A stretch of DNA of 64,000 nt. It comes from Diphasiastrum complanatum. Its lineage: Eukaryota; Streptophyta; Lycopodiopsida; Lycopodiales; Lycopodiaceae. Below, piece by piece: positions 7,340 through 61,171 of this stretch (its first letter is position 1; every line of letters begins with the position of its first letter). The notes beneath the pieces are model-generated. The model did no database searches. It saw only the letters and a program-made list of their open reading frames with translations, and was not told the origin of the DNA. The translations under genes and the position numbers were made by a program. The stretch is taken from assembly GCA_029204225.1 (NCBI GenBank), contig CM055095.1, positions 18,389,483 through 18,453,482 on the forward strand, read 5' to 3'.

Positions 7340-7850
7340 TACTCGGGGCCTTGGCATTTTGCAAGTTTCTTTTTTGCCATGATTCAACAAAAAGATAGCA
7401 CATGGTGTGCTATCTTTTTTACGCTACTACTTCAATGTTTTTTATTAAGAATGTGATTTTGGTACATAGTTAAAAATGTATCAAAATACAAAAAATTCAA
7501 ATTCAAATTTTTTTTGCAGCCTCCAAACCTTCTTGTTTTTTTTTCTGGTTAGGCCGTGCATGCCAGCATGCTAGGTTTGGAGACTACATTTTTTTTTTTC
7601 GGGTTGTCAGACCGTACACTCGGCGTGCTAGGTTTGGAGGCTAATTTTATTTTTCCTCATTTCATATAGCACACCAGCATGCTATCTTTAAATGTTACAA
7701 CTTTTTTTTTTTGTGTTGTTTTACTTAGCACGTCGGCTTACTATGTTTGGAGAAATAATGTTTTTACTCAAAATTTGATTCTCAAATGTGTCAAAATAGC
7801 TTTTCTATTTTATAATTTACTCGGCTAGCACACCGGCATGCTAGTGAAAT
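7340..7850. repeat. Palindrome-rich insertion inside Copia fragment 1
   Basis: About 500 bp replaces the integrase. It repeats an imperfect palindrome of the form TAGCAC-NCCGGC-ATGCTA: a perfect 9-bp inverted repeat GATAGCACA/TGTGCTATC at 7394-7414, then versions near 7557-7575, 7612-7631, 7666-7685, 7725-7743 and 7824-7843. Several are followed by (A/G)GTTTGGAG and a T-rich run. AGCCTCCAAACC near 7519 is the inverse of GGTTTGGAGGCT near 7630. No ORF is present. Confidence 0.6.
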
Positions 7851-21842: not shown

Positions 21843-24121
21843 TCAAATTTCTGCAAAATAGTCAAAAAAATTTCGCTCCCAATCCACGTAAAGAGGGAAA
21901 AGTTCAGGATACGCCATATTTACATTGATAAGCAGACCCGCATCATCAAAAGCACCCATATCCGCAACGTCTTTTGGTTTATACAACTGGAACTGCAACT
22001 TTCACTTCCAAACTTGTCGCTTATTGTCTTCGTTTCGCAAAAAATGATATTCTTTAATACAAATGTATTCTAAGGCATACATAGCAGAAGAGCCTAGGTA
22101 TAACTCAGCTGATCCGAAAGGCTCGACTGTAAATTTTTCCTGAATTATGCCCCAGCAGAGACATCCTTTCTGCTCGATAGATAATTGGGCCCATAACCAG
22201 ATAAAGTCGTCCTTTTCTCATGGTATCTTCCAATAATCGAAGGTGATGCCTATTGCGCCTGGTAGCATTTCAATGTTAAAAGCTTGTGGACACCACTTCC
22301 AAAATCGATCAGCAAATGCATTGAACCTTTCAGCACATACCTTTGACTAGTTTCGCCGTGGTCGCTTTGTCTGAGTAGTTGTTGTTGCCATGTCTTGAGT
22401 TTGTAACTTGGCAGCTAACTTTTGATCTTCCAACTACTACTTGAGATCAGACAACTCTTGTTCAAGCTTGTCGATCTTCGCTACTGTCTCCAAATATTCT
22501 AGATGGTCAACAACTCTCGAACATACAGGAACAGACTTAAGTTGCTGTGTTAGATCATCAATTCTCAACAGGGTCTGTAAATATTCGTCATGAGAGTCCA
22601 GCCTGCTGCATGTCTGGGTGGCTTCAATAGAGAGCTCCTTTAGCTCCTCCAACTCTTCTTCGACTAGTGTCTTCTCATCTTCGAGTGGTTGTAGGAACTC
22701 GACTCGAAAATTATCTAGCATCTGGCCTTGGAACTAGTTCAGTTTCGAGAGATCTATCATGATAGAACCTACATTGCTACACAGAGCAAGAGCTGTTTTG
22801 GCCTTTATTCTTGTCACTCGTTCCTCCTGCAAATGTTTTTGGAGGGTGAGATTGTTCTTTTAAAGAATCAATGGTAGTCTGATAATTTGAAGCCTTGGTC
22901 TCAATCGTCTTATTGATTTCCTTCAAAGAATCAGCTTCTTTTGTTGCGGTGTGAAGCTATTTTATGAGGGAACGATTTTGGTCTATCAGCTTCATGTTGT
23001 CTAATTCAAGCAAATCAATCTTCTCATAAGACTATTTGAGAGAGTTTTGAAACTTTCGCTCTGCTCCTATCAGGTCCATGATGTTCTTCTTATTATATCC
23101 ATCAAATTCATATATGTCAGCAGCTAAATTCTTGGCTATACTGGTCGTGGAGGTGGTTGTCAGGTTCATCATCATCTTTATCAGCTGTCCTAGTGTCGCC
23201 TACTGCAGCTGCTCAAGCCTTGTCTGAAGTGTCAGACTAGGTTTCGTCTTCGTCCGAGGCCCTTGAGTTCTTCTGTTTCTGTGAGGTTGAAGCAGAGGCT
23301 GGCTTTGTTGATTCAGTAGCAATAGGTCCATCTGTGTCCATGGCAGTGGTAGTATCTGTGTTTATTTGAGAAGCTGCACCATCAACATCCATAGCAGTTA
23401 TAGCTACTACTTGGATTGGTGGCACAAGTGCTGCTATGGCGGTTGTGACAGGTGTGGTCAGAAGACTAGATAGGTCAACTGGTGTTGGGGGCAACAGTCT
23501 TCACATCAACAAACTTTTCTCCTGGTCGCTTAAGGCTCCACAATGCTCACACAGATGCGAAACATGCGCTCCTACTGCCAAAATTTTTTCGTGTTTGATC
23601 CACCTCAAAAATGCCTTATATGCAATGATGCCAAAGCATACAAGATTGCCGGCTAGAGCATCCAATAAATATCCAAAATTTTGCACCAAAATAGTAGCAT
23701 CCGCATCTGTCAAAAAGATAACTTGATTGGCGTATTTACAAAACACCTTCAATGTGACATCCTTGATCATAGAAATTTTATAGCCCTTGGTAGGTACAAA
23801 GCAGTTGTTTAGAAAATAGGTGTCTTCATCCATTGCATCTCTGTTTGTAGAAATAATTTTACCATCGAGTGGTAATCCCAGAGCTGTGAAGAACACTTTC
23901 TCAGAGATGGTAAAGAACTTGTCTCGCACATGAACTTTAAAATCCGCATCAAATACTAAGTGGATGGAATTCACGAACTCAGTACTGACTTCAGAAAGGA
24001 TGACTAAAGGTTCCACTTTCAAGCTTCCCAACCTGCATTGATCCACAAGATACTGGATTGATTCTAGCCGGATTCATGCGCGTGCTTTCCAAGTAATAGA
24101 AGAGGTGGATCTAGAAGCCAT
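21843..24121 (-). pseudogene. Decayed extra ORF downstream of Gypsy pol
   Basis: A coherent coding signal runs right to left from an ATG at 24121 (MASRSTSSITWKARA, then a TGA). The first ~270 codons contain VHVRDKFFTISEKVFFTALGLP, ... DEDTYFLNNCFVPTKGYKIS and an FGYLLDALAGNLVCFGIIAYKAF segment, reminiscent of the 'R-G-K-x-h-x-h-S-x-x-h-x-x-h-L-G-L-P' opening of plant transposon-associated mobile-domain proteins. A Thr/Ala/Pro-rich linker and a coiled coil (22437-22721, LEQELSDLK) follow. The C-terminal part has FNAFADRFWKWCPQAFNIE, WAQLSIEQKGCLCWGI and PLYVDWER. Most breaks are TAG/TGA, with at least one frameshift. Ty3/Gypsy elements of the Tat/Athila type are known to carry extra ORFs here; a link to them is inference. 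Confidence 0.6.
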
Positions 24122-24299
24122 TTTGTCGAATAATTGACAAAAGCTCCGTAGATCGCAATAGGTCGTAATAGAATGCTTGATCGCAAAGATAGTGATCGTA
24201 AGTAATGTAAGAAAGGATAAAAAACGCAAGAAGAAAGTGTGAGGAGAAAAATAGAAAATGACTATGATCTACAGTGGCGGTGTGGAGAAGAAGGTGACG

Positions 24300-25135
24300 T
24301 GACATCTATCATTTTTTTTATTAATGGTGTGCATGGCTCATAGTTTCATAATATGATTTGTCAGATCAATCTTAATGATGGTAAGATCGTTTATAAAATG
24401 GAAATGATAAAAAAAGAAATAAAAAATAAATCCGTTTTTACGTGTAAGCGTAAACACGTGGGAGTAATGATGACAACGTGGCCATCATCTTAAATAGATG
24501 GATACAAAAAGTCCGTAAAAAGATTTTCGAAAGATTCTCAAAAAGATACTAGAAAGCATCTAGAAAATGATCCGCGAAAATTATAACAAGTTTTTTTTTA
24601 AATTTGGTGAGTCTCAAAAGATTTTCAAAAGATTCTCGAAAATTTCTCAAAAGATTTTGAAAGGAGTCTAGAAAGATTCTTGAAAATTTCTTAACAATCT
24701 TTGGAAAAAGTCTAGAAAGATTTTCGAAAAGATTCCATAACAGTCTTGAAAAATTTTCGAAAAGAATCTCGAAGAGATTTTAGAAAAGATGATAGAAAAA
24801 AAAAACTCGCAAAAAAATTCTTGAAAAAGATTTTTAGTAAAATGCTAGAAAATTTCTCAAAATATTTTTGGAAATAAAAATATAGTAGAAAAATTCTTCA
24901 AAAAATTGGAAAAAGATGCTAGAAAAATTGGAGAAAAATATAGTAGAAATTTTTTCGAAAATGGGAGAAAGATGCTAGAAACTTTCTCGAAAAGTTGGAG
25001 AAAAATTCTAGAAAAATGCTAGAAAAAAAAATGTTAGAAAGTGGTAGAAAATTCACGAACAATTTTAGAAAAGATAGGAGAAAAGTCGTGAAAAATTTCA
25101 GAAAGATCCTAGAAAAGAACAATTTTTTTTTTTTG
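24300..25135. repeat. Degenerate TTC/GAA-rich array
   Basis: From about 24500 to 25130 the sequence is an irregular array of short A-rich units such as GATTCTCGAAAA, TCTAGAAAGATT, TTTTCGAAAAGATT and ATGCTAGAAAAAT. GAA and TTC blocks alternate at short spacing, including several TTCTAGAA and TTCTCGAA cores. It lies between the Gypsy integrase and the extra ORF. The Phe/Leu-rich frame 24919-25224 on the minus strand is a by-product of it. 24300-24500 has no signal. Confidence 0.6.
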
Positions 25136-25139
25136 GTCA

Positions 25140-26082
25140 AAGATAATGTTTCTTGAGTTTGGACCCAGTCACATTCGTGTCGGTAATAGTTCGTCTTCAA
25201 GTGATTGGAGTTGAACATAACCATTTTCGAACACCTCTATAACTTTATAAGGTTCGAGCCATCTCATATGAAGTCTTCTATGGAACTTTTGATGTTGACT
25301 ATCATAGATCAGCGCAAAATCATCAACTTTAAGATCACTTTTCCTGATACGACTATCATACTTTTTCTTTCGTTGTTCTTGGATTTCCTCCGTTATTTTT
25401 TTGTGAATTTGCACGAGCTTCAAATAGTTCTTCAATAGTCATCAACCTTTCGTTAATACATTCTGCATCTGTTCGTTGAGCTTGAATATGAAAAGTTGTC
25501 ACCTCAAATTCAATAGGTAAAATAGGATGCATACCATAAGTAAGAAAATATGGTTTTTGCTTCGTCGTGATCTTCTCTGTGTTTCAATAAGCCCAGAGAA
25601 TTGAAGGTAATTTCTGATCCCAATCAATTGCATGTGCAATAGTAATCTTGTTCAGGATCTTGCAAAGTATTTCATTTGCTCTCTCAGTCAACCCGTTTGC
25701 TTTTGGATTATAAGAGATTGTCTTTCTGTGTTTAATCAAAAAATACGTTGTGAGCAGCCGTATTGTGTCATTTAAAAAATGTGTACGACGGTCACTAACT
25801 AATTCAAGAGGACAACCATATCTTGTGATTATAGATTTGAATAAGAACGTTGCAACAATTTTCGCATCATTTCATTTCGTCGCTTCTACTTCAACGTACT
25901 TTGTAACATAATCCGTTGCAACAAGAATATACTGACACTTAGTCTGTCGAGTCACGGGTTTGATTGGACCGACAAAGTCAATTCCCCACTTCTCAAATGG
26001 TGCAAGAGGTAGGATTGGTGTCAACGGCCAATTCATTGATTTTGTTGGCTTTTTAGATCTCTGGCATGGATCACACGAACAT
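25140..26082 (-). pseudogene. Ty3/Gypsy element 1 integrase
   Basis: On the minus strand, starting at 26082: the second half of the zinc finger (CSCDPCQRSKKP), FEKWGIDFVGPI and YILVATDYVTKYVEVEA (first Asp), GCPLELVSDRRTHF (second Asp), then NPKANGLTERANEIL carrying the catalytic Glu, KLPSILWAY, and a C-terminal module DSRIRKSDLKVDDFALIYDS, RRLHMRWLEPYKVIEVFENGYVQL. That module is typical of the Ty3/Gypsy GPY/F-like end. Two TGA/TAG-type stops and a frameshift near 25224 are present. The left half of the zinc finger and everything upstream (RT, PR, gag) are cut off at 26083, where a Copia LTR piece starts. Confidence 0.85.
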
Positions 26083-51461: not shown

Positions 51462-52059
51462 TGTAGGAATAGGGTGAGAGGACGCAAATGGAGGAAGAGA
51501 GAAGAAAATAGTTTGTGGAACAACTCTCCCATTATTACGGGCTGCTACAAGCAAGAACAGTCTAAAAGATTGTTGTCGCTGAAGTAGACTCACAGCTCAA
51601 GCGTAGGTTGCATCTATTCCTAACAACTATGGACTTAATTTCCAATAGCAAATTTGCCTTTATTAGAAGAAGTCCGGTCTATCAATGTATAGAAGACACT
51701 GCTAAGGAGTCTGTTGGATTAGCTTACAAGATTTGCTTAGAGGCAATAACGGATTAATTTGTTAGAAATTTTTTCCGTTCGTGACATATGTATTGTTGAG
51801 CTGTCAATTTGATTAAATCAGCTTTTGAGAGTTGGCACTGACATTGACTTTTGAAGAAGTCAGATAGTCGACATCGGAGCTTTGACACGATGTTGAGGAA
51901 GTCTATGATGTGGAAGTTCGACAAACTTCGATGTCAGACTTAGAAGTCGGACAAGGCTGAGAAGTCAAAGAAGTCACAAACTTCGGACAAGTCAAAGACT
52001 TCGGATAAGTCGACTTTGGCTCAGGCTCAAAACCAGAGTTGTATCTCATTTTGCCAACA
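51462..52059 (-). repeat. 5' LTR of element J
   Basis: On the minus strand it starts TGTTGGCAAAATGAG and ends CCTATTCCTACA. AAGTC occurs about seven times between 51857 and 52015, so the coding strand carries repeated TGACTT, a W-box-like core, in the U3 position. No partner LTR is present. Confidence 0.65.
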
Positions 52060-52817
52060 GTTCTACATGAAAGCAATGAATAGATTCTCATTACCAGTTG
52101 AATTTAAGAGAAATTTCAATAGGTTTCAAGCGTGGATGTACAAATGAAGGATGCAACATAGAAAAAGTCACTTGAAAACGATATTAAACATAGACATTCC
52201 AAAAATCCTATGAAAATACGCACCAGAAATGATGAATTTATAAAAGAAATTTTACACATGTGGAATCCGATCAAATGACATGGTCGTTCAATGGTTCATT
52301 GAGAATATTCTTCGTACATCGAATGATTGATGCAACAGTTCTCACATGCAGAATGACACATGTCGATATCCGATTCAACCACATGTTTGCACCCACGTGT
52401 CCCTAACCAATACGCCATAAATACCTATATGGATGGACACGTGGACCACTGAAATGCTGCCATGTGGCATCGGCTATTTTTCACACGTGCAAAATTTTTT
52501 TTACATATACTCTCCATGAAAAAGTCATTTTTTCATGCAGATTTTTAGCTTCTCTCCGATATCGCTCTCAAGCATATGCACTTGTCATCCTTTGTCCACC
52601 AACACCCCCCATACTCGAGACCAATACTACAATCTGTCCGATATTGCTTTTGAACGTCTTTCTGTTATTTTTGAAGTGTTACACTGCTCTCAAGACCGAT
52701 ATTCAATCCTCAAGTGCATTTCTTGTGCAAAAACTTTTTGAATCCTTTTTGTAAACTTGGATGCGATATTCCAATTTTGGTTTTTTTTTTTAAGTTTGTC
52801 TTTTTTTTTTTAACGTG
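52060..52817 (+). promoter_or_regulatory. Presumed promoter region of the H3-like/Ulp1 unit
   Basis: No ORF of note. Three ACGTG cores cluster within about 90 bp: CCACGTGTCC near 52402, GACACGTGGACC near 52437 and CACACGTGCA near 52484. Such G-box-like elements are typical of plant promoters. A T-rich stretch lies just before the ATG at 52818. Confidence 0.4.
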
Positions 52818-53170
52818 ATGGCTAGGACTAAATCCACTGCCCATACCAGAACCTCTGTACAGTCTTTCCATGCCCGTGTCCCTCCTAGAACTGGCTGACG
52901 ATGTGGTAGGAAGCAGGTCTAGTTGAGGGAGATCAAGAAACTTCAGAGATCAACTGAATTGTTGATTCTGAAAGCTCCCATTGGTCGATCTGTTAGGAAT
53001 GTCACCCTATCTCTCGGGCTTGATGTTCATTTTGTTGTCACAACCATGCAAGCCTTACAGGGTGTTGCAGAGAACTATCTGTCTCAATTTTTTGAGGATT
53101 CCATTCTTTTGGCTGTGCATGGTAAGCGTGGTACCATCATGTCCAAGGATTTCATAATTCTCAAAAGACT
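52818..53170 (+). pseudogene. Histone H3-like part of the fusion
   Basis: Eukaryotic H3 pairs with H4 in nucleosomes. Here the globular fold is complete by alignment, but tail residues after MARTK are not conserved (the K9/S10 and K27 contexts are absent). TGA at 52896 and TAG at 52920 interrupt the segment just before LREI. CGRKQV stands where RPGTVA is usual. Divergence is too great for a canonical H3 gene. Confidence 0.75.
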
Positions 53171-53559
53171 TCGGGACCGCTATCCAGATCTTCATGTGGA
53201 TAACGCTAGCACCTCCAGAGATATGCCTTTGGATAGATCAAACATGCCGACTACCTCAATGAAGAAGAGAAAGCAGGCTGTCCCTAGAAAACCTGGATCT
53301 CGTAGGCCAACTACTTTCCTTTCTCCGAGATTTATCCTTGCACAGTGAGCCCATATCGTCCTAACCACTAAATTAGTATCTTCGGACTCTAAATCAGACT
53401 CAGAACTAGATTCTCCTCCTCCTATTACTCGTCAACCTCCTCAGAATATTTCTTTATCGAAGCTGGAGATAACCCAAGAGGAGCTTGACAAGATAACAGA
53501 AAAAATTGTAAATATTGTCTCGACATCTATTTTAAGCCCCGTACATAACTTTTTTATAA

Positions 53560-54788
53560 GAATCCCATATGATCCTCTGCAGACATATTTTGATTCTGAC
53601 CATTATAATGAATATGAATCTTACTCAGCCAATAGAATTCATGTGCTCGGCAAGATTTTTGATTTTTTTCTTCCAGATTCAAATAGAAGCTTTTGATCAG
53701 GTCCCAAATTTTGTATAGAGCTTAAAGATAAAACTTCAGATATCACAGATACAATTGTAGAAGCCGGCCAAATTTTTTTGCAGCACAATATCAGTCTCGA
53801 TTCCATAGGAGACATTTTTGTTGTTAGTTGTTTTTTTATGTTGACAGTGAAGGCAAAAGAGGCCACTTTTGAAAGGGTTGTATATTTCATCAACTGTAGT
53901 CCAGTGGCCAAATTCTATTTGATTCCATATGAGAATAAGTAAGTTTTGCTAGTTTGGTGTTGATGCCTTTTATTTTGATAATTATACTCCTGTCAAAATT
54001 GATTCTAATTGCATTTTGATTGTTGCAGTCGACATTGGAGCTTAAATATTCTTTCTGTGAGAATAAATAAGGAGGGTGTATCAAATTTTCTATGTGTAAA
54101 ACTAAACTCAGCTAAAAATACACATAAAGAATTTGATTCTCTACTTCATGATGTCGTTCGAAAAACACCAACAATGACAAGTTCTATTGGGGAAATAAAC
54201 ATTAAATCTCTCAAGGTATATACAATTTATTGCTTATATGCATCTTTTTTTTTAGTGTAAATCTCTCTTCATAGCATGAATATATTATATATCATAATAT
54301 TAACAATTTTCGTTCAAAATCTGTAGTATGTACAACAAAAGGATGCTTTTAGTTGTGCATGGTTCGTGATGTACAATACAAAGCTTTTTTTTAGTGGTAT
54401 AATTTACAAATGGATGTTGATATTGACAAGGTAATATTTTGTTCATTTGTTGTTCTTTTCATTCTAATTCTTATTTCTTTAGTGTGATTGTTAGTAATTT
54501 GCTCATTCACCTTGTTTGTGATGATAGTTTACTCTTGACCCATACAATCCCGACAAAGTGTATAGATTGTGGCAAGAGTTGATCAAAAAATTTGTATTGA
54601 ATGGTGTAAGTTTAGAAGTCCTTCCTAAGACACACATTGCCAAAATGACTCAAAACACTTTTCCTGCTAACCTTCACATTTTTCACATTTTTAAAAATGC
54701 GACATCAACCTATTTTTTTGGCTTTCACAATTTTGAACTGGCACAGCGTGAAGAGCTGAAAACGGCTAAGGCACGGAAGAAAGTGTGA
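53560..54788 (+). pseudogene. Ulp1 (C48) protease part of the fusion
   Basis: Ulp1-family enzymes cleave SUMO precursors and conjugates. Related proteases are also carried by some plant DNA transposons. His, Gln and Cys of the active site are present; the Asp is Asn. Exon 2 (54029-54215) joins in phase with exon 1 through a split Asn codon. Exon 3 (54327-54430) is one base short of phase, probably in a T run at about 54387. Exon 4 (54528-54788) encodes a basic C-terminus (AKARKKV). Confidence 0.75.
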
Positions 54789-54990: not shown

Positions 54991-55133
<143 letters not shown>

Positions 55134-55190: not shown

Positions 55191-55881
55191 TGTGAAAAGT
55201 ACAGTACTAAGGACCATAAATGGATCTTTGAATGATCCACAAGATGATTGTATGCTTGTTAAACAATCTATCAGAAACTAGTCATCAGAAAACAAGATCT
55301 AGTTTAGCAGCTTGATAGGAAACAAGTAGAGACAATCAAAGCATTGATCAAATAGTCTAATCCAACTCCACACGTGTGGAAATAAGGCTGTACTACGGCC
55401 TGTAGACAATGTTTACAAAGTTCCAAAGCTGGGTTTCATTGGAAAAATAGAGTAATCACCATACAATGAGAGGAAACTCGAGTTTCTCCTTGAGGCTCCA
55501 AAAAGTTTCTATCTTCTCACTATGGAGAATGGAAATACATAGTAAAACACACTTCCTTTGCAAAGTTAGGTGAAAATCCAGCATGTAATAAGGAAGTAGA
55601 CTCCACTTTCTTGCCCTAATGTGAAAACCCTAGTCTAGATCCAAGAGTCATGCTTGGTAGGTGCATGGTAGGTACAAATCTCATCATAAATCATGGTCTA
55701 GATCCTACAAAGTAGGAATCACTACCAAATAGACACAACCACTCCTCTTGAATCGTGGTAACCTACTTTAGGTGTGTATGTACAAGTGGCACTTTTGCCA
55801 TTCAAGTAACCAACAAACAATATTGACAAAATGTACAATATTCTACATGGCTAGATTTGCCAATGTAGGCAATTTTTCACA
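55191..55881 (-). repeat. 3' LTR of element B
   Basis: 691 bp with TGTGAA/TTCACA inverted ends. Contains CACACGTGTG at 55379-55388. Confidence 0.95.
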
Positions 55882-56343
55882 CTCCTCCTCAAATCTAGCC
55901 TTGGAGATCACAATGCTTTTATCAATAACTCCAATTGAAGATCTAAGCTTGACAAATGAATCTTTAGGTAAAGGTTTAGTAAACAAATCAGCCAAGCAAC
56001 TTGATGATGGCACGTGTTGGAGCTTGATCTCTTTAGCTTGCACTTTTTCCCTCACGAAATGATGAGCAATTTCGATGTGTTTGCTCCTTGCATGGAATGT
56101 AGGATTAGTTGCAAATGATTGGGCTGATTGGTTGTCACAATAGATGATAGGGATCTCCTCCTCCATGACATGAAGCTCCACCAATAGCCTTTTGAGCCAC
56201 AAGACCTCCTTGCATGTTGATGTCAAGGCCTTGTATTTGGATTCTGTGGAAGATAGGGAGATGGTATCTTGCTTTTTGGAAAGCCATGATACTACTCTAT
56301 CACATAGAAAGGTGGCAAAGGCACTTGTTGATCTTCTATCCAC
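55843..56343 (-). pseudogene. Element B RNase H, frameshifted from the polyprotein
   Basis: DRRSTSAFATFLCDRVVSW, SLSSTESKYKALTSTCKEVLWLKRLL, YCDNQSAQSFATNPTFHARSKHIEI and LADLFTKPLPKDSF give the complete C-terminal Copia RNase H. It continues the polyprotein but lies in another frame; a single-base loss just after the SDSDFA motif (near 56345) explains the split. The frame runs through the polypurine tract and ends 39 bp inside the LTR. The Met at 56343 is not a real start. Confidence 0.9.
55882..55893 (-). other. Polypurine tract of element B
   Basis: The minus strand reads GAGGAGGAG next to the 3' LTR, identical to element A's tract. It also encodes part of the RNase H C-terminus (FEEE). 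Confidence 0.8.
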
Positions 56344-59300
56344 TTTGTCACTGCAAAATCCGAGTCACTATAGGCTCTTAAGCCAAGATTAGTTCCTCTA
56401 TACAAAATACCAAAATTCTTAGTGAATGAAATGTATCTAAGAACTCTTTTGGCCATCTTCCAATGTGAAACTAGAGGACTTTGCATGAATTGGCTTAACT
56501 TTCCAACACTATAACTAAGATCAGGTCTAGTTATAGTTAAATAGATCAAGGAGCCAATAAGCCTTCTATATAATGTGATGTCCTCAAAGGATGCTTCATC
56601 ACAACCAATAGATGCTTTTACATGTTGCTCCATTGGTGTCTCAATGCCTTTACAATTCTTCATTCCAAATCTATCTAGGATGGATGTAGCATATTTAGAT
56701 TGACAAATGAAGCTAAAATCACATCCTCTAATAACCTCTATTCCAAGAATGAAGCTCAATAGGCCGAGATCTACCATCTTAAACTCTTTTGCTAAAGCAA
56801 TTTTTACATTTCTAATTCCATCTAGATCATTACCACTCAAGATAATGTCATCTACATACAAAACAAGAATAATGATCATGCCATCATGAAAACTTATATA
56901 CAATGATGGATCATAGGCACTCATTACAAAATTGATGGAAATGAGAAAAGAGTTTAGCCTAGAGTACCATGCTCTAGGTGCTTGCTTGAGCCCATAAAGG
57001 CTCTTCTTCAAAAAACACACCTTTCCTTCATGCTTTGCCTTGATGAAGCCCTCGGGTTGCCTCATGTATATCTCTTCCTCCAAATAACCATTGAGGAATG
57101 CATTTGTTAAGTCAAGTTGGAATAGCTCCCAATTGAAGGTTGTAGCAAGACTAATGATCAACCTGATAGTAACAAGCTTAGCCACAGGAGCAAAAGTCTC
57201 ATCGTAGTCAATGCCTTTGGTTTGTAAAAAACCTTTGGCAACAAGCCTAGATTTATGCTTGCTTATTGATCCATCTTGATTATACTTCAATCTAAACACC
57301 CACTTGCAATCAAGAGGTTTCTTCCCTTGAGGAAGATCCACAAGATCCCAAGTATGATTCTCAATAAGAGCATCATACTCTACTTGCATAGCATCCATCC
57401 AACTTTTAGACTTACAAGCATCTTCATAGCATGTTGGCTCATCTAACATTGAAGTAAGAAAGGTGTAAGATGTGAAAGATGATGAGCCTTCCCTTTGATC
57501 ACCTTGACCATCATAGGTGAGCCTCAATGGCTCGGATCTTGCCCTTGTAGATCTTCTTGGAGTTCTTGGAGTTCTTGCATCTTGAGGTGGATCCTCAAGT
57601 TCTTCTTCACTTGGAAGCTCCTCCTCCATCCTAGCATGATCCTTGGCATCAAGATGATTAGTAGCATTATCATCCAAATCACAAGCATGTCCTTCAAAAA
57701 TAACATCCCTACTCACTATCACCTTGCTAGTGATGGGATTGAAGACTCTATAACCTTTGCTATTCTCACCATATCCCACAAAGATGCCTTTGATGGATGT
57801 TGCATCATCCTTCCTTCTCTTATCCAAGGATTGGTGTACATAGCAAGTGGATCCAAAAACTTTGAGATCTTTGAGATTGGGCTTCTCTCCAAATAGAGCT
57901 TCAAATGGTGTGATTCCTCCAATGGCTTGGTTTGGCAATCTATTGCACAAATAATTAGCACAAGTTATTGCTTCACCCCAAAATGGTTTGGATAGAGAAG
58001 CATCTAGCCTTAAGGCCTTAGCACACTCACAAAGAGATCTATTTCTTCTCTCACTCACTCCATTTTGTTGAGGGGTGTATGGACATGACAACTCCCTCTT
58101 TATGCCATTAGAAATACAAAAGTCAATCAACTTATTGGAGACATATTCACCTCCATTATCACTCCTTAATACCTTAATCTTGGTACTAAGTTGATTTTCT
58201 ACCAAAGTCTTGAACTTTACAAAAGAATCAAACACCATTGATTTGCTAGACAAGAGGTACATCCAACAAAATCTAGAATAGTCATCAATGAAGATTACAT
58301 AGTACTTGGCACCACCATTAGACTCATGTGAAAAACTATGAACATCCGAATGGATGAGTTCAAGAGGAGAGTTTGATCTTGATGTAGATCTTGAGAAGGG
58401 TAGCTTGTGAGCCTTTGAGAGGCTGCATGCTTCACATCTCTTCCCACACTTTGACAAATGCTTGGGGAGTCCAACTGCAAGCTCCTTTGTAGTCATAGAT
58501 TCCATGGCTTTGTAGTTGGGGTGGCCCAACCTTTTGTGCCACAGTTCCACCTTTGATAGCTCCACCTTTGCCAAGTTAACACTCTCCACTGCAATATTAG
58601 CATCAAGCTTAAACAATCTACCTTGCTTAAAGCCTTTGGCTATACATTCATCATTTCTAAGGATGGAACAAACTCCATGCTTAAATTGTACATCTAGGCC
58701 ATTATCCATTAACTGGCCAACACTAAGCAAATTCTTGGTTAACTTAGGAACATAAAGAACATTATCTAGATTCATCCTTTTGGATGATCCCACATACAAG
58801 GGAATTGTTCCTATTCCACTTATCTTACATTCTTGACTACTTGCAGTATAGATTGATCTATGTAAGTCATTGTAAGAAAGTAAGGTGGAGAATATGTCCT
58901 TTTGATATGTCATGTGGGAATTTGCCCCACTATCAATCCACCAAGAATCATTGGTGTTGCTCTTGGATGATGGTGGTTTGTTGTAAACCATCAAGGATGA
59001 CTCTTCATCCTCCTCTTCCTCCTGATGTGCAATGTTGCTTTGTTTGCTCTCTTGTGCCTTCTTCTTCTTGAGACATTCTGATGCAAAATGTCCTTTCTTT
59101 CCACAGAAAAAACATTTGTACTTGGACTTGTCTTTGATCTTGCCCTTTGAGCTTGAAGCCTCATCCTCCTCCTTGGTCTCCTTGAAGTGCTTCTTCTTGC
59201 CATTGGTCTTCTTCTTGCTTTTAAATGAGAAATTAGCTTTCTCATCACCATCCTGCAGAGAAATAGCATTCATTCTTGCATTGGTATGCAACATCCTACA

Positions 59301-59861
59301 CTCTTCAACTACTAATACATTGTGTAGCTTTTCTATAGTAGGCAAAGTGTCTTGGATTGCAAAGCTTTGGACCAAATTTGTAAAGCCACTCCCTAGACCA
59401 TTTAGGACAATCTGAACAAGCTCACTATCTTGAATCTTCTCTCCAATGGAAGCTAACTCCCTATTAAGAGACTTGATTCTTAGCACATAATCTTGTGCAT
59501 TCTCATCACTCCTCTTCATGCTTTGTAGAATCTGGTTCCTAAGCATGAGAACCCTCGAAGTGTTACTAGACTCATAGATAGATTTTAAAGATTCCCAAGC
59601 CTCTTTAGCACTCTTACATGATGATACTTCCCTTAAAAGATCATTGCTTACATTCATCTTAATACAGTGAAGTGCAAGCCTAGACCTCTTCTTGTATCTC
59701 ACTAATTCTTGTGCACCTAGAGGTTCATCTTCATCATCTATTAGAAACTCATAAAGGTCCTGGAGCACCATTAGTGACTCCATCCTCACTTTCCAAATAG
59801 CATAATTGGTAGAATTTAACCTCTCACTAGCTTCTAGAAGGTAGGCTCCCACTGATCCCAT
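56292..59861 (-). CDS. Element B Gag-Pol polyprotein (1189 codons)
   Basis: One open frame encodes Gag (MGSVGAYLLEASERLNSTNY to about 240), zinc knuckle CFFCGKKGHFASEC (Cys250, Cys253, His258, Cys263), protease DSGA (310-313), LWHKRLGHPNYKAM (440-453), integrase with Asp506, Asp568 (LRSDNGGEY) and Glu604 (NGVSERRNR), a Ser/Arg/Pro linker, and RT (CKWVFRLKYNQDGSI near 852, LDLTNAFLNG, LYGLKQAPRAWY, YVDD at 1002-1005, KMVDLGLLSFILGI). RNase H starts with SDSDFA (1165-1170) and then runs out of frame. All catalytic residues are present. The product would assemble as a cytoplasmic particle that copies and integrates the element. The start is chosen because the same MGS.GAYLLEASERL opening occurs in element A. 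Confidence 0.95.
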   Translation of the reverse strand: MGSVGAYLLEASERLNSTNYAIWKVRMESLMVLQDLYEFLIDDEDEPLGAQELVRYKKRSRLALHCIKMNVSNDLLREVSSCKSAKEAWESLKSIYESSNTSRVLMLRNQILQSMKRSDENAQDYVLRIKSLNRELASIGEKIQDSELVQIVLNGLGSGFTNLVQSFAIQDTLPTIEKLHNVLVVEECRMLHTNARMNAISLQDGDEKANFSFKSKKKTNGKKKHFKETKEEDEASSSKGKIKDKSKYKCFFCGKKGHFASECLKKKKAQESKQSNIAHQEEEEDEESSLMVYNKPPSSKSNTNDSWWIDSGANSHMTYQKDIFSTLLSYNDLHRSIYTASSQECKISGIGTIPLYVGSSKRMNLDNVLYVPKLTKNLLSVGQLMDNGLDVQFKHGVCSILRNDECIAKGFKQGRLFKLDANIAVESVNLAKVELSKVELWHKRLGHPNYKAMESMTTKELAVGLPKHLSKCGKRCEACSLSKAHKLPFSRSTSRSNSPLELIHSDVHSFSHESNGGAKYYVIFIDDYSRFCWMYLLSSKSMVFDSFVKFKTLVENQLSTKIKVLRSDNGGEYVSNKLIDFCISNGIKRELSCPYTPQQNGVSERRNRSLCECAKALRLDASLSKPFWGEAITCANYLCNRLPNQAIGGITPFEALFGEKPNLKDLKVFGSTCYVHQSLDKRRKDDATSIKGIFVGYGENSKGYRVFNPITSKVIVSRDVIFEGHACDLDDNATNHLDAKDHARMEEELPSEEELEDPPQDARTPRTPRRSTRARSEPLRLTYDGQGDQREGSSSFTSYTFLTSMLDEPTCYEDACKSKSWMDAMQVEYDALIENHTWDLVDLPQGKKPLDCKWVFRLKYNQDGSISKHKSRLVAKGFLQTKGIDYDETFAPVAKLVTIRLIISLATTFNWELFQLDLTNAFLNGYLEEEIYMRQPEGFIKAKHEGKVCFLKKSLYGLKQAPRAWYSRLNSFLISINFVMSAYDPSLYISFHDGMIIILVLYVDDIILSGNDLDGIRNVKIALAKEFKMVDLGLLSFILGIEVIRGCDFSFICQSKYATSILDRFGMKNCKGIETPMEQHVKASIGCDEASFEDITLYRRLIGSLIYLTITRPDLSYSVGKLSQFMQSPLVSHWKMAKRVLRYISFTKNFGILYRGTNLGLRAYSDSDFAVTKWIEDQQVPLPPFYVIE

Positions 59862-60479
59862 CTTACTAGCAAGATTCTACACACAAGATATAGATTTGTT
59901 TGGACCTGAAACTCACAAAGGTTTCAAACTTGTAGTGTTTCACTCAAATGTTGACTTCTAATCCAACAGATGGATTTGTAATCACAGTTCTATCACTCCC
60001 TCACAAGCTGGAATGAAGATAAGATGAGATGAAAACTACACTCAAGCAAATCTTGCCAATCTTGGCTATTCTTGGACAAAAACTGACTCTATCTCTCTCA
60101 TTCACTTTGATGTACTTTCAAGACCTGGTTTCCACTTTAAGAAGGTCTGAAATCAGCCTAGATTAATTATTTTTCATGAAACAAATTCAAAACTAATCAA
60201 TGGCAAGTGATCTTGGTAGCTTATCCTAGGATTTGCACCAAAAATTACATCAAACTGACACCATATGAATTTTCTATGATCCAATGAATATGGGTTATTA
60301 AATGCTGGTTCAGAAATTCCCACACGTGTGAACAGTACGGATTTTGATCCTGAAAAAGTTTGGGATCAAATCCCCTCACCAAAACCTGGATACCAGCTCG
60401 CCCTTCCAATACTAGCTTTTTGCACCAAAACCTGCTAAAACTGGATTAGATTCAAACACAGATCAATGGCCTTGTACTT

Positions 60480-60492
60480 GGCTCTGATACCA
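60480..60492 (-). other. Primer-binding site of element B
   Basis: The minus strand reads TGGTATCAGAGCC immediately inside the 5' LTR, complementary to initiator Met-tRNA. Confidence 0.92.
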
Positions 60493-61171
60493 TGTGAAAA
60501 GTACAGTACTAAGGACCATAAATGGATCTTTGAATGATCCACAAGGTGATTGTATGCTTGTTAAACAATCTATCAGAAACTAGTCATCAGAAAACAAGAT
60601 CTAGTTTAGCAGCTTGATAGGAAACAAGTAGAGACAATCAAAGCATTGATCAAATAGTCTAATCCAACTCCACACGTGTGGAAATAAGGCTGTACTACGG
60701 CCTGTAGACAATGTTTACAAAGTGCCAAAGCTGGGTTTCATTGGAAAAATAGAGTAATCACCATACAATGAGAGGAAACTCGAGTTTCTCCTTGAGGCTC
60801 CAAAAAGTTTCTATCTTCTCACTATGGAGAATGGAAATACATAGTAAAACACACTTCCTTTGCAAAGTTAGGTGAAAATCCAGCATGTAATAAGGAAGTA
60901 GACTCCACTTTCTTGCCCTAATGTGAAAACCCTAGTCTAGATCCAAGAGTCATGCTTGGTAGGTGCATGGTAGGTACAAATCTCATCATAAATCATGGTC
61001 TAGATCCTACAAAGTAGGAATCACTACCAAATAGACACAACCACTCCTCTTGACTCGTGGTAACCTACTTTAGGTGTGTATGTACAAGTGGCACTTTGGC
61101 CATTCAAGTAACCAACAAACAATATTGACAAAATGTACAATATTCTACATGGCTAGATTTGCCAATGTAGG
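60493..61171 (-). repeat. 5' LTR of element B, outer end lost
   Basis: 679 bp matching the 3' LTR with four differences (near 60546, 60723, 61053 and 61098). The last ~12 bp, including the TTCACA end, are replaced by unrelated sequence from 61172. Confidence 0.93.

Follow-up and report, generated by a model that had tools for sequence, protein, structure and literature searches.

The window analysed here – a 64,000-nucleotide stretch of the genome of the clubmoss Diphasiastrum complanatum – carries at 52818-54788 the remains of a gene in which a histone H3-like part is joined in one reading frame to a protease-like half. The frame opens with the ATG at 52818, runs through exon 1 (1121 bp) and across three short introns of 90, 111 and 97 bp, all with GT-AG ends, and closes with a stop ending at 54788 (Table 1). 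Four in-frame stops interrupt exon 1, where 1000 dinucleotide shuffles gave a mean of 21.7 and a minimum of 9; exons 2 and 4 have none, and exon 3 contains a one-base shift at or near a run of eight Ts. A previous reading of this DNA from its letters alone (the sequence-only reading) had proposed a single frame leading from MARTK through an H3 fold and a linker into a protease, with GT-AG introns, four stops and a one-base shift. The shuffle test of stops confirms the frame, and the introns and each of the lesions are present as described.

Several other features lie in the window. A stop-to-stop open frame of 788 aa at 346-2712 encodes a PPR protein with an E motif, and the CpG observed/expected ratio reaches its maximum for the window, above 1, at 24001-26000. 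A long GA microsatellite (54994-55132) separates the relic from a copia-type LTR element on the minus strand (55191-61171), which begins 400 bp downstream of the relic and has LTRs that are 99.4% identical; CpG observed/expected is 0.10 in this element versus 0.47 in the fusion gene. A 17-base near-repeat (94%) is shared between the upstream region (51866-51882) and the start of exon 2 (54027-54043).

Table 1. Coordinates of the fusion gene, its upstream region and the two further genes of the element (window positions unless a copy is named)
Feature	Position	Strand	Evidence
Exon 1: H3 tail, H3 fold, linker and start of protease-like half	52818-53938	+	frame and stop analysis
H3-like tail, short and divergent, begins MARTK; stops at 52896 and 52920	52818-52922	+	
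Histone H3 fold, residues 36-120	52923-53177	+	PF00125, PDB sequence matches, model
Linker, basic, then acidic and Ser/Pro; stop at 53346; resembles P0118 and other copies	53178-53486	+	
Protease-like half, first part; stop at 53694	53487-53938	+	
Intron 1, GT-AG	53939-54028	+	
Exon 2: His 54033-54035; family-wide Asn 54105-54107 (catalytic-acid position)	54029-54215	+	
Intron 2, GT-AG	54216-54326	+	
Exon 3: Gln 54336-54338, Cys 54354-54356; shift at or near T run 54385-54392	54327-54430	+	
Intron 3, GT-AG	54431-54527	+	
Exon 4, C-terminal region	54528-54788	+	
Upstream stretch, ~68-69% identical to the element's promoter region	52312-52573	+	blastn against L062, L063
CACGTG x3 (52394, 52438, 52484), remnant of family motif array	52394-52489	.	
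Second gene of the element, points away from fusion gene, several pieces	L062 3199-1524; L063 2933-1763	minus	
Third (left) gene of the element, with stretches like HICTLHAEMRIIEKI	L063 769-1350; L062 799-1221; L070 725-1342 (minus)		

Genomic copies and the mobile element

A search of the D. complanatum genome with the H3 and linker region gave 150 scored matches, all of them either the window itself or one of 149 others at 70-79% identity, with the weakest still at 1.7e-57. This number is a lower bound, there being 6742 further unscored candidates, and some of the matches are near-identical duplicates. Thirty loci were examined, and setting aside six near-duplicates left 24 distinct copies. 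In 16 of these, as judged by eye, H3, linker, exon 2 and exon 3 are collinear on one strand (one of the 16 has exon 2 in part only); at the DNA level the two halves are thus not always separate genes, the arrangement that the sequence-only reading had set against a fusion. Most copies bear stops or gaps. Its call for an intact paralogue was right in spirit, since less damaged copies exist: one of 26 aligned copies is stop-free over 494 compared codons, with 3 codons gapped, and the exon-1 frame of L061 is uninterrupted for 397 aa.

Among public proteins, the full-length query has eight matches, all with an annotated histone domain, and the protease-like half as query matched none. Apart from protein P0118, the best 120 of 164 protein matches listed are histone-domain proteins only. 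P0118, which resembles the linker of the window copy, was at one stage taken for a relative from another species; it is a D. complanatum protein and in all likelihood one more copy from this genome. A viral origin was also considered, and three scans of viral contigs confirmed no relative.

Comparison of 8-20 kb stretches around eight copies shows the fusion gene to be embedded in a longer sequence common to the copies. The better preserved elements are about 9 kb long, have inverted terminal repeats CATTAGAGAAA and contain two further genes. Beyond the right end, GGGCTCTAAGTTTCTCTAATG, six fetched copies run into unrelated DNA. The same boundary recurs in 13 more stretches; two of these differ in the last base, and a few have changes preceding it. 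The left end, CATTAGAGAAAATATGGGCCC, is sharp in three copies (one with a changed base), and in a fourth it lies at position 7413 of the C16 stretch, where it was recognised as an inverted match to the right end; an earlier placement at C16 7506 was abandoned because eleven other copies extend further left. The two ends are inverted repeats over 11 of 11 bases and imperfect beyond. The C16 copy is 9,230 bp long and the C2 copy about 8.8 kb, assuming that both its ends belong to one insertion, and no target duplication is visible in these two copies with both ends (the same assumption applying to C2). A small GC-rich hairpin lies near each element end (L095-L097 and L071-L082), the left one seen by folding and the right one by inspection. 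The right end had been read as that of a Helitron, with hairpin, CTAA and T, until the left inverted repeat appeared.

Both further genes lie to the left of the fusion gene; one of them shares its strand and the other runs in the opposite direction. The opposite-strand gene has no Pfam match. A genome search with part of the left gene gave 150 matches among 150 scored, the others at 87-95% identity, and 17 of these sit 1.3-4.1 kb upstream of one of the 150 H3 and linker matches, on the same strand, as counted by eye. No credible family match was found for the left gene, matches to BLYB and to coiled coils being taken as chance, and none to Pfam transposase, Mutator transposase, DUF1985 or Tnp2 families was found in the pieces scanned, with exons pieced together by eye. 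Because of its position and copy number, the left gene is possibly the transposase of the element. Because copies of the fusion lie repeatedly within an element bounded by inverted terminal repeats, the gene at 52818-54788 is, on the evidence of these sequence comparisons, a gene of a high-copy TIR DNA transposon; the sequence-only reading had proposed a former host or transposon gene, of which the transposon is retained and the host gene dropped.

The window copy is about 76% identical to the copies compared, and in those comparisons it matches the element only at 52312-52573 and about 52801-54611. A search for element ends around it found none, and no convincing terminal inverted repeats or flanking repeats were seen, such as the sequence-only reading had suggested looking for. 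It is a decayed, diverged relic of an older or separate branch.

The two halves of the protein

The H3-like part is confirmed. It matches PF00125 with an E value of 4.3e-20 in the read-through translation and 4.9e-17 in its stop-free part, scoring 72.6 bits against a cut-off of 26.4, and among PDB sequences it is closest to histone H3 chains, with 85 residues aligned gap-free, as the sequence-only reading had proposed for the H3 fold. The predicted structure has four helices in H3-like order, at modest confidence (pLDDT 61), and the best PDB fold match of the model is a nucleosome complex (E 3e-3). Canonical H3 has the same gap-free fold, to which this part is about half identical, but the fusion protein differs in having a short, divergent tail and some 430 further residues attached. 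In the window copy 35 residues precede the fold, 14 fewer than in canonical H3, and tail position 9 is a lysine in one of 23 copies with an alignable tail (counted by eye, L021 being excluded as unalignable). A short tail without K9 fits a protein that would sit with histones yet be unable to carry the H3K9 mark.

An origin from CENH3 is not favoured. Some residues of the fold are CENH3-like, for example LLIP.APF in most other copies, but loop 1 has the length found in H3, and the scores against CENH3 are lower than against H3: alignment to four H3s needs zero or one gap, and to two CENH3s at least four gapped positions.

The second half is probably Ulp1-like. Its exon-joined core of 123 residues, in the native frame, matches PF02902 with an E value of 5e-4 at 20.4 bits, just under the cut-off of 20.7; this is the only family below E 0.1, and the reversed core, used as a control, matches none. 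Longer versions of this half give PF02902 at E 0.006-0.012, the longest also matching YpjP at 0.045. Of six other copies, four match PF02902 (E 0.005-0.023; 14.9-17.1 bits), all below the cut-off, and two do not. A profile built from seven family sequences has no match among PDB sequences, and hhalign against Ulp1/SENP sequences did not beat shuffles: it aligned the motif around the Cys, yet a higher score was reached by 4 of 60 shuffles. A genome-wide search for PF02902, exon by exon, returned three places, none a recognised copy of the family.

The exon-joined core carries HW and Q-x5-C, the arrangement of Ulp1 proteases (Peptidase C48), and the spacing of its His, Gln and Cys is like that of Ulp1. 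Across readable copies the His is kept in 16 of 17, the Gln in 15 of 16 and the Cys in all 16. The Ulp1 domain of the sequence-only reading is partly confirmed: residue spacing and best Pfam match agree with it, and the score falls short of the cut-off. Differences from Ulp1/SENP enzymes, apart from the sub-cut-off score, are an Asn where Asp is usual and, in most copies, an Ala directly after the Cys. The Asn had been regarded as damage to the triad; it is present in 16 of 17 copies, with Lys in the other, and so is a family trait. The conserved Asn and the Ala after the Cys may mean that the enzyme is inactive. Cys-His-Asn triads are active in papain-type enzymes, so the family's Asn may be compatible with activity.

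Selection, upstream motifs and a putative role at chromatin

Estimates of dN/dS used rows with at least 70% coverage and 50% identity per region, which retained 23, 24, 24, 20, 17 and 16 of the 24 copies for the tail, H3 fold, linker, first protease-like part, exon 2 and exon 3, respectively. For the window copy against the others, the values in the same order are 0.36, 0.14, 0.54, 0.25, 0.31 and 0.22, and among the other copies 0.62, 0.39, 0.72, 0.56, 0.65 and 0.34; all are pooled and approximate, being taken from shared codons of related and mostly decayed copies. The linker is just mildly below 1 in both comparisons. With dN/dS below 1 in both halves, the view that each evolved under purifying selection is supported; the copies thus show signs that the fusion was kept by selection, perhaps for helping the transposon to act on chromatin.

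The non-coding DNA upstream of the fusion gene, roughly 320-1200 bp from it, contains an array of CACGTG motifs with a density of up to eight per ~230 bp, and in several copies the array stretch is repeated about 500-630 bp further upstream. There are 164 CACGTG motifs in 33,474 bp upstream of the 24 copies, where 7.8 would be expected at the rate of the window, and 22 of the 24 have at least two in their upstream DNA. Because the copies are related, the shuffle test on single copies is the one to trust: one copy has 8 motifs within 300 bp, a number not reached in any of 2000 shuffles, which average 0.19, and the three motifs in 200 bp of the window copy exceed all 2000 shuffles. CACGTG is common, too, as a binding site of host transcription factors. 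We infer that the array would either mark the DNA acted on or drive expression via host G-box factors.

We consider it probable, at roughly 0.6, that the locus is a decayed copy of the H3/Ulp1-like fusion gene of a high-copy transposon, with a putative accessory role at chromatin. As to what that role might be, the available text of the relevant papers describes VANC, a protein of Arabidopsis VANDAL elements, as binding short tandem motifs in the non-coding DNA of these elements (PMC5735166) and removing silent marks from them (PMC5735166; PMC10398659); in some VANC genes a Ulp1 domain has been captured, and its function is given as unknown (PMC13317346). Given the VANC-like layout of the motifs and a Ulp1-like domain joined to a histone, an anti-silencing or otherwise chromatin-directed accessory role is held to be likeliest, ahead of target choice and protein processing, although our preference for it is tentative and short of even odds. 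The fusion would place an H3-like protein of the element's own making within or beside the chromatin that covers it, and there the protease-like half could strip a SUMO-type mark or otherwise hinder silencing, in a manner akin to VANC proteins freeing VANDAL elements. A more specific version, which we think rather unlikely, is that a transposon-encoded H3, without lysine 9 in nearly all copies and joined to a module resembling a SUMO protease, is concentrated on the element via the CACGTG array, replaces host H3 there and yields chromatin that could not be silenced.

Other explanations account for parts of these observations. The fusion could aid target choice or opening: its H3-like part would dock the complex that carries out transposition onto nucleosomes or H4, and its protease-like half would be structural or involved in processing. 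The domain and copy evidence also supports this, as does a second high-copy gene, a candidate transposase, that accompanies the fusion gene. This explanation leaves the CACGTG array unexplained, no transposase has been recognised in the pieces scanned, and we regard it as unlikely. Proteases of self-synthesising elements mature element proteins, and the protease-like half could do the same here, the H3-like part being a DNA binder or a passenger. Retention of His, Gln and Cys in nearly all readable copies would suit such a function, but the H3 fold is the most constrained part of the protein (dN/dS 0.14) and the element has three separate genes instead of a polyprotein, which was not seen, making this account distinctly doubtful.

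The fusion might, conversely, have no function, the transposon having multiplied captured H3 and Ulp1-like pieces without using the protein. Plant transposons are well known to pick up pieces of genes, as the available text of PMC13317346 sets out, and most copies have stops or gaps. We nevertheless judge passive capture very improbable: dN/dS is below 1 in every region and lowest in the H3 fold, and the exon order, introns and catalytic residues are conserved across copies that are 24% apart. Hardly credible is the proposal that the halves are neighbouring genes that merely look fused, for a single exon, in one frame, runs from H3 through the linker into the protease-like half, unbroken in L061, and the in-frame order recurs across copies.

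Relation to known transposon systems

DNA transposons that bear a Ulp1-like accessory gene are already known, and it is the histone part that differs here. As far as the available texts describe them, VANDAL elements with VANC or Kaonashi (KIU) in Arabidopsis resemble the clubmoss element in being DNA transposons that carry an accessory gene, some VANC having Ulp1 (PMC13317346), and in having short motifs in tandem array in non-coding DNA (PMC5735166). Carriers of KIU are described as non-TIR MULEs, whereas the clubmoss element has TIRs, and the word 'histone' has no occurrence in the main text of PMC13317346, whereas the clubmoss fusion has a histone part. A further difference from VANDAL is that neither Mutator transposase nor DUF1985 was recognised in the pieces of the clubmoss element scanned. 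The CACTA-ULP elements of grapevine and rice are plant DNA transposons that likewise contain a Ulp1-like region (PMC2528002); they differ in their end sequences, in the Tnp2 that has no match in the scanned pieces of the clubmoss element, and in the histone part, 'histone' having no occurrence in the available text of PMC2528002.

No histone encoded by a transposon came up in the searches made of open-licence PMC papers, and the clubmoss element may be the first DNA transposon known to carry one. A histone partner of a Ulp1-like domain, in a lycophyte and with both under apparent selection, offers a handle on what the Ulp1 domain does in transposons; the H3 fold as partner points that question towards nucleosomes. 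The element also lends itself to a natural test of the idea that mobile DNA might furnish its own chromatin, and a self-supplied, unsilenceable H3 would, if true, be an anti-silencing device of an undescribed kind.

In the last exon of the fusion gene (L063 6460-6816; window 54528-54788), several other copies diverge strongly from the window copy after about 30 residues, and the C-terminus looks as if it had been exchanged.
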